Below are positions 2,861-8,202 of a DNA stretch of 8,877 bases, piece by piece. The notes beneath the pieces were generated by a model that was not told the origin of the DNA, ran no database searches, and saw only the letters and a program-made list of their open reading frames with translations. The first letter of the stretch is position 1, and each line of letters begins with the position of its first letter. The stretch covers positions 71,151 through 80,027 of the forward strand of contig WVZH01000045.1 of the NCBI GenBank assembly GCA_011772595.1. Direction: 5' to 3'. The position numbers and the translations under genes are program-made. This DNA is from Anaerolineales bacterium. GTDB taxonomy: Bacteria; Chloroflexota; Anaerolineae; Anaerolineales; E44-bin32.

Positions 2861-3757
2861 TTATAAGCCCCGCGACTTGCCCTTCCGGCGCTTGCGCAGC
2901 ATCTCTCGAAAGCGCGGCGCCATCTCAGCGATAATCGGGGCCGGATGCGGAGGTTGCCACACCTTCTGTGCCTCCTCTGGAGGTACAGGCCAGGTTTCCG
3001 AGGAATGAACGATCGTGCCCGGCCCCTGAGCCTCTTCCAACACGCTCAACGCTTCTTGAATAACTCGCATCTGCTGCTCCACGTTGTGGGGCTGACCCAA
3101 GGTCTGTCCAAAGGGAAACTCAACTGCCAGCGTGCGAGGTACGCCGGTTTTCTCCGCCCAATAGGGCATCATCGTCACCAAGATCGTCGCCAAGCCAGCA
3201 GCTTCAAGCGTACGTGCCAGCACGGGCACGTTGATGGCGCAATCCGGTCATGCCGGTGTGAGCAAGACACAATGCACTCCTTCGGCTTCGAATCGATCGG
3301 CCACCTGTGGCCCATACGTTTCCTTCCAGCCGCTCGTATCGGGTGGAAAGCCCTGGTAACCCATGAAGGAGTAGGCATGATCTGCTAATGCCGCGATGCG
3401 GCCATCCGCCACCAATTCCTGAAACCGCCGCAAGGGTAAGACCACATTGACGTCTGAAAGAATCGGTTCGGGGTTGATGTGCAGGTGACTTACGCCCAAG
3501 TCCTCTGGCTTGATCCCGACAGGTATGGAACGAAACGTGGGATCGCCCCAGGTGGGTTCATCCCGCTCGCGTTCGAGATTAAATGGCTGCTCTACTCCTT
3601 TTTGAAAAAGGCCTCCAGAAGTCACGAGGCCAAATTTACACGCCTCAAGGGGGTGGGGAACGGGTGTCCAGGGGATAGGTTTCTCCGGCTCGCACTCTGT
3701 CATTTGATAAAAGGTTGCGATCAACCGCGGCAAAAACTTAAAACTGTCCACCGACAT
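2861..3757 (-). CDS. GrdB-family (PF07355-type) selenoprotein, UGA-encoded Sec170
   Basis: Read with TGA at 3250-3248 as selenocysteine, this is one 298-residue protein of the 'glycine/sarcosine/betaine reductase selenoprotein B family'. Its family pattern spans both sides of the TGA: FGLVTSGGLFQKG (43-55), GDPTFRSIP, SHLHINPEPILSDVNVVLPL, ALADHAYSFMGYQG, then GVHCVLLTPA-U-PDC and a typical cofactor-like helix after it (LEAAGLATILVTMMP). Sec170 and Cys173 form a UxxC motif where non-selenium relatives have CPxC, implying a thiol/selenol redox role. It is shorter than true glycine reductase GrdB (about 430 residues) and no GrdA/GrdC/GrdE genes are nearby, so glycine reduction itself is not supported. 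A SECIS-like hairpin follows the TGA. The ATG has GGAG 6 nt upstream. It lies 24 nt after the reductase gene and 12 nt before the M28 peptidase gene. Confidence 0.87.
3212..3231 (-). promoter_or_regulatory. Predicted bacterial SECIS hairpin
   Basis: On the minus strand, inside the coding region, ACGTGCC (3231-3225) pairs perfectly with GGCACGT (3218-3212), giving a 7-bp stem and the 6-nt loop CGUGCU. The stem begins 16 nt and the loop 23 nt after the UGA. Bacterial SECIS elements bind SelB through a short hairpin just downstream of UGA, with a loop of a few nucleotides that has a G in its first two positions. Here the second loop base is G, followed by U. Spacing, stem and loop all fit. No folding program was run. 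Confidence 0.75.
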
Positions 3758-3781
3758 GATATTCTCCGTAGTTCGACATGC

Positions 3782-5030: not shown

Positions 5031-5492
5031 ATGGTCAATCAAGAACAACTCACCAAAGCGTTTGAACTCAATTTTAGGCGCAATCGAAGGCAAACCGAGG
5101 GGCTTTCTCATGCGGACAACCAATTGCATCCTCCTATCCGCGGTGACTGCTGGAATTGGGTGTTGGGGGTCCCTGTGGGTCGAAATCGCGTCTTGCAACT
5201 CTTGGGGGAGACGCCCGTTCCTTGTGGTGCTGAGAGGATGCGCGAAGAGATTGGCTGAGTTCCAATTACCGAGGACGCCGAAGAAGTCGTGCCTCTCGAA
5301 ACGCTACGCGAAAGATCGACCCGCGCGCTAGGGCGAATCCTAGTCGGCTTGCGACGCGCTACAGTGATCGAAACTTCTGCTGAATTAGAGGTGGGCCAAA
5401 AAATCTTCGGACTCTACTTTTACGACACGTATCACATCGGGCAGACAGAGTATCTCCGCCAGCTTGCAGGAACCAACGACGGGGTGGTTTAG
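5031..5492 (+). pseudogene. DinB-family (DUF664-like) gene broken by in-frame TGA
   Basis: Read through the TGA at 5256-5258, the frame gives 153 residues with clear DinB-type features: LTKAFELNFRRNRRQTEGL, NWVLG followed by RVLQLLGETPV, then ITEDAEEVVPLETL, and the C-terminal FGLYFYDTYHIGQTEYLRQLAG. DinB-fold proteins are small four-helix bundles, often with a three-His metal site and roles in thiol-linked detoxification. Two expected His positions are changed here: relatives I recall have LGH and FHDTYH, while this has LGV and FYDTYH. The segment after LLGETPV also looks shortened. Stop codon, lost ligands and short middle together suggest decay. A good promoter precedes it, so the loss may be recent. 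It ends 5 nt from the convergent HtrA gene. Selenocysteine at the TGA is considered unlikely. Confidence 0.75.
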
Positions 5493-5497
5493 AGTCA

Positions 5498-6502
5498 CTA
5501 AATCTCACCGGTCACGATCTGCACCATTCGCCGCTTGCCACGACGCAGGATCGAGAGTCCGACTTGTGATCCGGGTGGGACATCGGCAAGCAGTCGATGG
5601 ATGTCGTCCACCGAGGCGACACTTTGCCCGTCCAGTCCGACGATCAGGTCGCCATCACGAAGCCCCGCCCGATCGGCGGGACCACCACCCTCAACGGAAA
5701 CCGCCTCAACAGCGGTTGACGTCTCCAAACTGTGATAGCGTTGCAGTCGCCGCGCGGTCGGCCGCACCTGGCCTGCCAAGCCCAAATAAGCTCGCCGCAC
5801 CTTGCCCTGGGTCAACAGTTCACCGACGACCCAACGCGCCGTGTTGACCGGCACTGCAAAACTTATGCCTTGCGCCATGAAGATCATCGCCGTGTTTATA
5901 CCTACCACCCGGCCGCGACTATCGACTAAAGGACCCCCAGAATTCCCCGGATTCAAGGGAACGTCCGTCTGAATGACGTTTTCAATCAACCGCCCAGACT
6001 GACTGCGCAAGGAGCGGCCAAGCGCAGAGACTACTCCCGTCGCTATAGTACTTTGAAATCCGAGTGGGTTGCCGATGGCGATGACCAATTGTCCCACCCG
6101 CAAGGATTCAGAATCACCCAAATCAGCGGTTGGCAGATCAGCCTCTCCTACGCGCACAACGGCCAGGTCCGTGTGCGGATCGCTGCCAACGACTCGCGCT
6201 TGAAACGTCCTTCCATCCGTCAGTCCAACCTCGATCTTTTTCCGGCCTTCGACCACATGATGATTGGTTAGAATGAAGCCGTCTGGTGCAATCGTGACGC
6301 CTGATGCCGCCGATTCACGCTCGAAACGGCGCGGCCGCCTTACGTTCTTGACTTTGATACTTACTACCGCCGGCCCCACTTTTTCCGCCACACCAACCAC
6401 GGCCTGTGAGAATGCGTCGAGTAGGTCCTCACCACGCTCCTGGCCAGTCGGTACCGCCGTGCTTTCTCCCATACTCCTACCAACAACCTTGATCTCACGC
6501 AT
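5498..6502 (-). CDS. HtrA/Deg-like serine protease with PDZ domain
   Basis: This 334-residue S1C protease has the full triad: His82 in TNHHV, Asp112 in HTDLAV and Ser188 in NPGNSGGP. A single PDZ domain follows at about 236-330, with YLGL at its start, the central AGLRDGDLIVGLDGQSV and the closing GSQVGLSILRRG. HtrA proteins degrade misfolded or exposed peptides and can act as chaperones. The N-terminus (about 35 residues) is polar, with no signal peptide or membrane anchor, so the enzyme is probably cytoplasmic, which is unusual for the family. It is the most canonical of the three neighbouring proteases. A gap of 147 nt separates it from the upstream protease gene. The ATG at 6502 has only a weak GAG-type ribosome site. 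An internal ATG ten codons in is possible, but its ribosome site would be too close. Confidence 0.92.
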   Translation of the reverse strand: MREIKVVGRSMGESTAVPTGQERGEDLLDAFSQAVVGVAEKVGPAVVSIKVKNVRRPRRFERESAASGVTIAPDGFILTNHHVVEGRKKIEVGLTDGRTFQARVVGSDPHTDLAVVRVGEADLPTADLGDSESLRVGQLVIAIGNPLGFQSTIATGVVSALGRSLRSQSGRLIENVIQTDVPLNPGNSGGPLVDSRGRVVGINTAMIFMAQGISFAVPVNTARWVVGELLTQGKVRRAYLGLAGQVRPTARRLQRYHSLETSTAVEAVSVEGGGPADRAGLRDGDLIVGLDGQSVASVDDIHRLLADVPPGSQVGLSILRRGKRRMVQIVTGEI

Positions 6503-6649
6503 GTTTACCCACTCTCGTATGTCTTCAATTTAAAGTCTAATTGCTGTTCTTAAAATCTCGGGCTGGGTCATCGATCCCGCCGGTTTTTCGGTCTGGAAAT
6601 ACCCGTGCTTCGTCGGTTAGCCGATGCTTCTTTTCGCTCCAAAGGTCAA

Positions 6650-7276
6650 CTACACACCAACCGGGGTGACGAGCTTGTCCTTCCCAAGATGCTCTTTTAG
6701 AAACAACTTGATGGTTTGTACCGGGATGGCGAGCCCTGCGTTCGGTCCTGCCATCATCGTATTAACACCCACAAGCCTGCCTTGCGTATCTACGAGTGGC
6801 CCACCGGAATGACCGGGACGAAGATGCAAGCTGACCTGAATCAACTCTTGACCTAATGAAGCCATCTCCGGAGGTACCCCGACGGCGATCACGACACCAG
6901 CGGTCGCTGCCCCTTGTACGCCCCAGGGATGGCCCAAGGCAACCACCCAATCGCCGGGCCGGAGTTGCTTTGAATTTCCTAGCTCCACAGCTGGTAAACC
7001 GTTGCTCTTAACTGTCAGAGCAGCCAGATCATGGGCTTTATCGCTGGCAACCACTCTTGCCGGAGTGGTCTCTCCATTCGGGAGCGTGACCCGTAGAGCT
7101 CGCTTACCGGCGACATGTGCGTTGGTCAAGATCAATCCTTCCGGATGCCAGATCGTCCCTGCCCCTGCACCTCGACCAGCGGTCTCAATCCGTACCAAAG
7201 CTGCTCGCGCCTTCTCGACAACTGTCGACATATCCTCATTGAACCGGCTTAAAAAATCGAATGCCTCTTTTTCCAC
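6650..7276 (-). CDS. Trypsin-like S1C serine protease lacking a PDZ domain
   Basis: This 208-residue protein is a bare HtrA-type protease domain. It has His54 in TNAHV, Asp83 in AHDLAAL and Ser157 in RPGHSGGP, followed by GRLVGVNTMMAG and a C-terminal helix that ends where a PDZ domain would begin. His replaces the usual Asn before the catalytic Ser. There is no signal peptide. The start is GTG at 7276, which overlaps the TAG stop of the upstream protease by one base (TAGTG), so the two are translationally coupled. A GGAG lies about 10 nt upstream. Without PDZ, substrate choice or trimer control must come from elsewhere, possibly from hetero-assembly with its neighbours (inference). The lack of any PDZ remnant in the 147 nt before the next gene suggests the short form is genuine. 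Confidence 0.9.
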   Translation of the reverse strand: MEKEAFDFLSRFNEDMSTVVEKARAALVRIETAGRGAGAGTIWHPEGLILTNAHVAGKRALRVTLPNGETTPARVVASDKAHDLAALTVKSNGLPAVELGNSKQLRPGDWVVALGHPWGVQGAATAGVVIAVGVPPEMASLGQELIQVSLHLRPGHSGGPLVDTQGRLVGVNTMMAGPNAGLAIPVQTIKLFLKEHLGKDKLVTPVGV

Positions 7277-8202
7277 TATTCACGCACTCCAATCAATATC
7301 TGCAAATCCTTCAATTCACCACCACGCACAACTCGAACCGGCACATCACTGCCGATACGTTCCCCGCTCAACAATGCCAACAGATCGTCCATATGTCGTA
7401 CACGTTCCCCGTCGAAGGCAACGATGGTGTCACCAAGAACCAGACCTCCTTTATCTGCGGGGGTGTCTGGCTCGACAGCAACCAACATGACACCGGTTTC
7501 TTGGTCCAGCTTCTCCGCTAATAGGACTGGCAAGCGCACCGGTTGAACGCTTACACCGAGGTAGCCTCGCCGTACGCGTCCATGCTCGAGAAGGGCACGA
7601 ACCACCTGGTCGAGCGAACCGTGAGGCACAGTCAGGCTGACGCCCCGTAACAAACCTGACGTGTTTAACCCCAATCCAACACCCGTCCCGCTCACCAACA
7701 AGCCACCGGAGAAGCCGGGGTACATGACCACATCGGTTTGTAAATAGGGTTCTAGTTCACCACCTGCAGGTGTTTGCCACCGCTCGCCCAGGGCACTGAC
7801 AATTCCCAAGGTTGCCATCACTCGTTGCCCTGGTCTCCCCAATGCCAGTACAAGGTGGCCCACACGCAAATCCTCCACATTCGCCCAATCCGGCACCTCA
7901 ATTCCTGAAACGTCCGCACGCAACACGGCCAAATCGGTTGTGGCATCCCGCCCGACTAACTCGGCCGAAACTGTCTTTCCCTCATCTAGCCCGATCTGAA
8001 TATTCCCCTCCCGCTGGACAACGTGATGCGCCGTGACAATGACACCGTCGGAGGACCAAACGATCCCACTCGCCGGTAAGCGTCTCCTGGCCTCCACCCG
8101 TACGACGCTCTTACTCGCCCGCGCCACAGTTTCAGCCAAAGCGCTCGATACATCTTTCAAAGCTTCCATCGTGTTCCTGACCTCCATCCCAAAGGTAGCC
8201 AT
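7276..8202 (-). CDS. Divergent HtrA-like serine protease with PDZ domain
   Basis: This 308-residue protein is the first of three adjacent HtrA paralogues. It keeps His60 in TAHHV, Asp90 in TTDLAVL and Ser165 in YPGFSGGLL; the residues around Ser differ from the usual GNSGGP, with Phe before it and Leu after GG. A PDZ domain spans about 212-305 (YLGVSVQ, DTPADKGGLVLGDTIVAFDGERV). There is no signal peptide or membrane segment. The ATG at 8202 is used here. Another ATG at 8169 follows GGAGGTCAGG and is a credible alternative, giving 297 residues that still hold the whole protease domain. Its stop overlaps the next protease start. It lies 114 nt downstream of the response regulator gene, across a leader with two small hairpins. 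Confidence 0.9.
   Translation of the reverse strand: MATFGMEVRNTMEALKDVSSALAETVARASKSVVRVEARRRLPASGIVWSSDGVIVTAHHVVQREGNIQIGLDEGKTVSAELVGRDATTDLAVLRADVSGIEVPDWANVEDLRVGHLVLALGRPGQRVMATLGIVSALGERWQTPAGGELEPYLQTDVVMYPGFSGGLLVSGTGVGLGLNTSGLLRGVSLTVPHGSLDQVVRALLEHGRVRRGYLGVSVQPVRLPVLLAEKLDQETGVMLVAVEPDTPADKGGLVLGDTIVAFDGERVRHMDDLLALLSGERIGSDVPVRVVRGGELKDLQILIGVRE

Follow-up and report, generated by a model that had tools for sequence, protein, structure and literature searches.

The closest described relatives of the protein reported here are two selenoproteins, PrdB of D-proline reductase and GrdB (glycine reductase protein B, PF07355). In D-proline reductase, the subunit PrdA carries a pyruvoyl group. 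For glycine and sarcosine reduction, the substrate is described as forming a Schiff base with a carbonyl close to the selenocysteine (Sec) in the passages of PMC10838667 cited here. In the same passages, FarB, a GrdB-like Sec protein of fluoroacetate breakdown, is proposed to cleave a carbon-heteroatom bond, and its partner FarE is said to be without cysteines forming a pyruvoyl group (PMC10838667), which implies that the superfamily need not always use pyruvoyl. The motif of GrdB is given as UxxCxxC in the cited section of PMC13188914. PrdB selenoproteins have also been counted in marine metagenomes, and the parts of these accounts cited here name neither a Chloroflexota clade nor the PrdA question (PMC1088965, PMC2398784).

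We have analysed a stretch of 8,877 nucleotides of Anaerolineales DNA (the window) that encodes a protein of this kind. On the one hand, the window protein resembles PrdB (TIGR04483) of Terrisporobacter, Enterococcus, Peptoclostridium and Ligilactobacillus, being homologous over residues 29-250 with the same Sec column, and both are small single chains with a UxxC motif. Identity to the Terrisporobacter protein is about 34%. With the marine metagenome PrdB it shares the UxxC motif, pfam07355 and environmental abundance, as far as the cited part of PMC2398784 describes these. On the other hand, the window protein has UPDC where PrdB has UGTC, carries an extra C-terminal segment and belongs to a separate clade, and PrdA was not found in its relatives. 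Compared with GrdB, it passes the Pfam gathering score, but its match starts at position 213 of the PF07355 profile, so that it lacks the N-terminal region of GrdB. Its motif reads UPDCAIN, with Asn at the third position, and so departs from the UxxCxxC of GrdB; GrdA was found in none of its 16 relatives. FarB keeps a GrdE-like partner in the cited passages of PMC10838667, whereas a GrdE-family gene was not found in the relatives of the window protein.

Results

The preliminary description had proposed a minus-strand frame at 3757-2861, open except for a TGA at 3250-3248, and had expected standard annotation to report it in pieces. Re-reading gave the same coordinates. The read-through product has 298 residues, with codon 170 as the sole in-frame TGA, and mechanical ORF finding indeed splits the frame into a product of 169 aa (3757-3248) and a GTG-started product of 122 aa (3229-2861). 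We consider that this frame is almost certainly a single redox gene that looks like two owing to an internal UGA. The features of the window are collected in Table 1.

Table 1. Positions of the features discussed, numbered from the first nucleotide of the window.
Feature	Position	Strand	Basis or remark
PrdB/GrdB-superfamily selenoprotein gene	2861..3757	-	ATG at 3757, TAA stop 2863-2861
In-frame TGA at codon 170, taken as a selenocysteine codon; motif UPDC with U170 and C173	3248..3250	-	conserved column
GGAG, Shine-Dalgarno-like, 6 nt 5' of ATG	3764..3767	-	sequence; role inferred
SECIS-like hairpin, 7-bp stem ACGUGCC/GGCACGU, 6-nt loop CGUGCU (3224-3219)	3212..3231	-	conservation and folding
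DinB-like frame with in-frame TGA at 5256-5258	5031-5492	+	homologue alignment
Three consecutive serine-protease-like genes, apparent tandem array	5498-8202	-	

The protein had been assigned to the GrdB family. Membership of the GrdB superfamily held, as Pfam GRDB (PF07355) matches residues 27-167 with 27.4 bits against a gathering score of 22. PrdB proved closer: among NCBIfam models the top hit is the one for D-proline reductase PrdB (TIGR04483), which matches residues 29-250 across the TGA with 144.4 bits, below its equivalog cut-off of 300 bits. Sec170 aligns with an in-frame TGA in each of five PrdB genes, of which four are annotated (there the residue is numbered Sec151) and one is not. 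In a tree of 44 proteins, several deeper branches of which have weak support, the window protein falls in a clade of 19 (support 100/99) that includes neither the five PrdB rows (100/100) nor other Chloroflexota types with UPxC, CUPxC and UGxC motifs. Other Chloroflexota PrdB-like types (UPIC, CUPIC, UGLC and similar; L039-L045 and L047-L058) all have a TGA in the same column.

To collect relatives, 84,980 species, each represented by a single genome, were scanned with short patterns, which returned 46 candidate stretches, 16 of them encoding a relative. The titles of all 16 loci name Chloroflexi, Anaerolineae, Anaerolineales or Ardenticatenales. In 14 loci the match spans at least residues 3-287 of the query, across the TGA, and it is shorter in L014 (residues 1-190) and L016 (residues 1-161 only). 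Codon 170 is TGA in all 15 close loci that reach it, followed by PDC in 14 and PEC in one. In the 14 longer loci, 55-68% of the residues before the TGA and 53-72% of those after it are identical to the window protein, and the part after the TGA is at least as conserved as the part before it in 10 of them. Together with the single domain predicted below, these values bear out the earlier view that both sides of the TGA belong to one protein.

A class sample extended this pattern. A homologue was present in 62 of 396 genomes from the class of one relative, giving 76 matching stretches, of which 73 contain at least one TGA at any position and the other three are fragments short of the codon. The best 30 of the 76 were fetched, and in each of the 29 that span the codon the aligned column holds TGA. 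Since seven of these genes were already in the first set, 37 distinct genes agree with the window on TGA. In a phylum sample of 301 genomes, all 41 matches at E 1e-30, from 40 genomes, likewise contain at least one TGA at any position. The query carried Cys at codon 170, so Cys versions were not disfavoured, and the class and phylum searches with it returned no match covering the codon without TGA. When a different residue at this codon was looked for in close relatives, the 37 distinct genes had TGA and one protein, P0002, had Cys. An in-frame UGA kept at one position across relatives is the pattern of a selenoprotein.

P0002 is a metagenomic protein of 305 residues with 59% identity across 99% of the query, and was placed by the tree within the clade of the window protein. 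It is a single continuous chain in which TCPDC aligns with AUPDC of the window protein, and it is the one full-length Cys relative seen from this clade. The preliminary description had placed the Sec at a redox position occupied by CPxC in Cys homologues and had proposed looking for Cys opposite U170; P0002, with CPDC there, supplies it. A distant homologue from Roseomonas has CPVC at the motif, so that replacement of Sec by Cys, which is typical of selenoprotein families, is found in both proteins. In the Roseomonas locus (L060, 3887-6272), the Cys homologue adjoins an oppositely oriented SelO gene.

The database homologues are mostly short. Among 120 listed (1085 found), 116 have lengths of 168-183 aa, and their last residue, in LTPA, LTPT or similar endings, is the one that precedes the TGA; the window's own fragment P0003 is one of them. 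With 116 of 120 listed homologues stopping right before the Sec codon, a systematic annotation error is evident. The Pfam GRDB match to the window protein extends to position 345 of the 347 in the profile but stops three residues short of the Sec codon, and the model looks as if it may have been built from truncated ORFs.

The hairpin after the TGA had been cited in favour of Sec. It lies with its loop 23 nt from the UGA, has G at loop position 2 followed by U, and folds alone at -10.5 kcal/mol. The limits for bacterial SECIS elements given in the cited section of PMC13188914 are a stem of 4-16 bp, a loop of 3-9 nt, G in the first two loop positions, a distance of 16-37 nt from the UGA and an MFE of at most -7.5, and the window hairpin lies within all of them. 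The ACGUGCC-CGUGCU-GGCACGU element is common, with few changes, to 19 close sequences (18 distinct), and for 18 of the 19 the energy of the hairpin folded alone lies between -9.9 and -11.9 kcal/mol; L035 has a stem mismatch, reaches only -3.8 kcal/mol and falls outside the energy limit. Over the seven codons +6 to +12 downstream of the TGA (Asn-Val-Pro-Val-Leu-Ala-Arg), mean pairwise codon identity is 0.76, whereas these amino acids give 0.40 in the rest of the gene, and none of 20000 resamples reached 0.76, for a stretch that was picked after the hairpin had been seen and in sequences that are related. The first four codons are nearly invariant (AAC 19/19, GTG 17/18, CCC 19/19, GTG 18/18), and those for Leu, Ala and Arg (+10 to +12) are more variable, with identities of 0.49, 0.54 and 0.39. 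This synonymous constraint is the strongest evidence for the hairpin. The stem shows weak covariation (a single double change, with 169 of 500 shuffles as high) and the fold of a 77-nt window is ordinary (z -0.28; 67 of 200 shuffles equally good). A stem of at least 7 bp arose in 1166 of 5000 synonymous shuffles of the window gene, whereas in the gene itself just 7 of 277 positions have one. The hairpin is therefore credible because it is conserved and not because it is improbable in a single sequence; as support for Sec it is real and fits the bacterial limits, but in the window sequence alone it is not exceptional.

The machinery for Sec, which the preliminary description had proposed to seek in the same genome, was searched in the genomes of the 16 relatives. 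SelA, SelB and SelD each exceed the curated cut-off in 14 of them. A tRNA-Sec exceeds the gathering score in 14 as well, a score that 5 of 14 control genomes also pass, and is clear at 59 bits or more in 12. All four parts are clear in 8 of the 16 assemblies and every assembly has at least two. Among these assemblies, whose completeness is unstated, SelB was not found in G009 and G016, SelA in G005 and G012, SelD in G012 and G016, and a tRNA-Sec over the gathering score in G002 and G014. SelD itself carries an in-frame TGA in 12 of 18 matches over the cut-off. In the class sample, SelA exceeds the cut-off in 315 of 396 genomes; of the 62 with a homologue, six gave no SelA match (G313, G327, G333, G347, G381 and G403) and in four others the matches were weak.

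The structure of the read-through product was predicted by AlphaFold from 36 sequences, 16 of them full length and the remainder partial. The model is one compact alpha/beta domain spanning the TGA (pLDDT 90.8, pTM 0.91), in which strand 163-167 is followed by the Sec motif and then by helix 173-186. Splitting the gene at the TGA would thus cut the predicted domain. No solved structure proved to be clearly related.

The partner subunits of the known reductases were also sought. The PrdA/GrdE proprotein family (PF09338) was found in none of the 16 relatives' genomes, with a control plasmid positive. In the class sample it occurs in 3 of 396 genomes, and among the 62 with a homologue only G063 has it, leaving 61 unmatched. 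GrdA was absent from the matches in all 16 relatives' genomes; it was found in G187 and is present in one of the three genomes with PF09338. No conserved neighbour gene was seen around the relatives in loci of limited length. This PrdB-like branch seems to be without the usual partner subunit.

Discussion

We are highly confident that the locus is one gene whose UGA codon 170 would be decoded as Sec through SelB and tRNA-Sec with the help of the hairpin, giving a single-domain oxidoreductase of the PrdB/GrdB superfamily that apparently has no partner. Sec at residue 170 is supported, at the level of sequence, by the conserved TGA, the Cys homologue, the constraint on the SECIS-like hairpin and the Sec machinery of the relatives.

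Other accounts of the in-frame TGA have been considered. If the UGA were a true stop, the locus would encode two separate proteins of 169 aa and 122 aa, and a GTG start 18 nt past the TGA and the 169-aa product in public annotation are in keeping with this. However, Pro171, Cys173 and Asn176, which lie between the TGA and the GTG, are retained in 15 of 15 loci, P0002 is continuous with Cys, and the break would fall inside the predicted alpha/beta domain, making two proteins very improbable. It is even harder to believe in a dead gene split by a chance nonsense mutation or by a sequencing error. Stop-broken genes do occur here, as an apparently decaying DinB-like gene with an in-frame TGA lies in the same window, but for the Sec gene the same TGA is found in the 37 other genes that were examined and span the position, and the part after it is 53-72% identical in 14 relatives and folds with the first half. 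The DinB-like stop differs from the Sec case: of 28 proteins found, six relatives were aligned, and all six have Ser opposite the TGA; in addition, 8 residues have been lost from the window copy. Since none of the DinB-like matches listed in the class search has an internal stop, that frame looks to be decaying. We give as little credence to UGA being read as Trp in this organism (code 4). P0005 was deposited with Trp (W) at the Sec position and could be taken that way; this Trp is probably the same TGA translated under another code. Against code 4, an M28 gene in the window terminates in TGA, the listed genes use TGG in frame, the gene's own copies in L001, L007, L012 and L015 appear to terminate at TGA, the relatives carry Sec machinery, and the full-length homologues have Cys and not Trp.

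Given a Sec protein, it could be a true PrdB subunit of D-proline reductase, as databases name it, and TIGR04483 is the best NCBIfam match with its Sec column shared by the five PrdB genes. We regard this as very unlikely, if somewhat less so than the two-protein account, in view of 144 bits against a 300-bit equivalog cut-off, a separate clade, the absence of PrdA/GrdE-family matches in 16 of 16 relatives and 61 of 62 homologue-bearing class genomes, and the lack of a conserved neighbour in loci of limited length. The window protein is nearer to PrdB than to GrdB and yet no canonical D-proline reductase, because it misses the PrdB cut-off, stands in a separate clade and has relatives in which PrdA/GrdE was not found. 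By its sequence it is best described as a solitary UxxC PrdB-like selenoprotein of Chloroflexota.

For the selenoprotein reading, conservation suggests that the hairpin would steer SelB and tRNA-Sec to decode codon 170 as Sec. In the model, the Sec170-Pro-Asp-Cys173 pair lies where a helix begins, following a beta strand. By analogy with PrdB and GrdB chemistry, the Sec170 selenolate would most likely attack and reductively cleave a small substrate or a disulfide, Cys173 would resolve the selenyl-sulfide, and a thioredoxin-type donor would regenerate the enzyme. Unlike in D-proline or glycine reductase, catalysis would apparently proceed without a PrdA/GrdE-type partner. A partnerless protein may have a substrate activated beforehand or a disulfide as its target, or may use some further partner.

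We tentatively suggest, as a possibility that we hold with less than even conviction, that the PrdB/GrdB superfamily has a stand-alone branch of Sec reductases which recurs in Chloroflexota, acts without a PrdA/GrdE-type proprotein and has a substrate other than proline or glycine. If this is true, a new selenoenzyme activity is hidden in databases as 169-residue fragments. Many of these bear the name D-proline reductase, which is doubtful for many of them because the defining partner was not found in genomes with PrdB-type selenoproteins. That such selenoproteins can occur in genomes where this partner was not found raises a testable enzymatic question. In the open-licence literature, we recognised nothing on a solitary, PrdA-less PrdB-like branch; this branch may be new, and the superfamily itself is known.

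Other features of the window

The DinB-like frame provides a negative control for reading an in-frame TGA as Sec. In the apparent tandem array on the minus strand, the first gene is trypsin-like with a PDZ domain by Pfam, and the other two we take to be serine-protease-like as well. An imperfect palindrome, TCATTGCGAG...CTCGCAATGAC, was seen by eye at about 1071-1154 of the window and is possibly a dispersed repeat.
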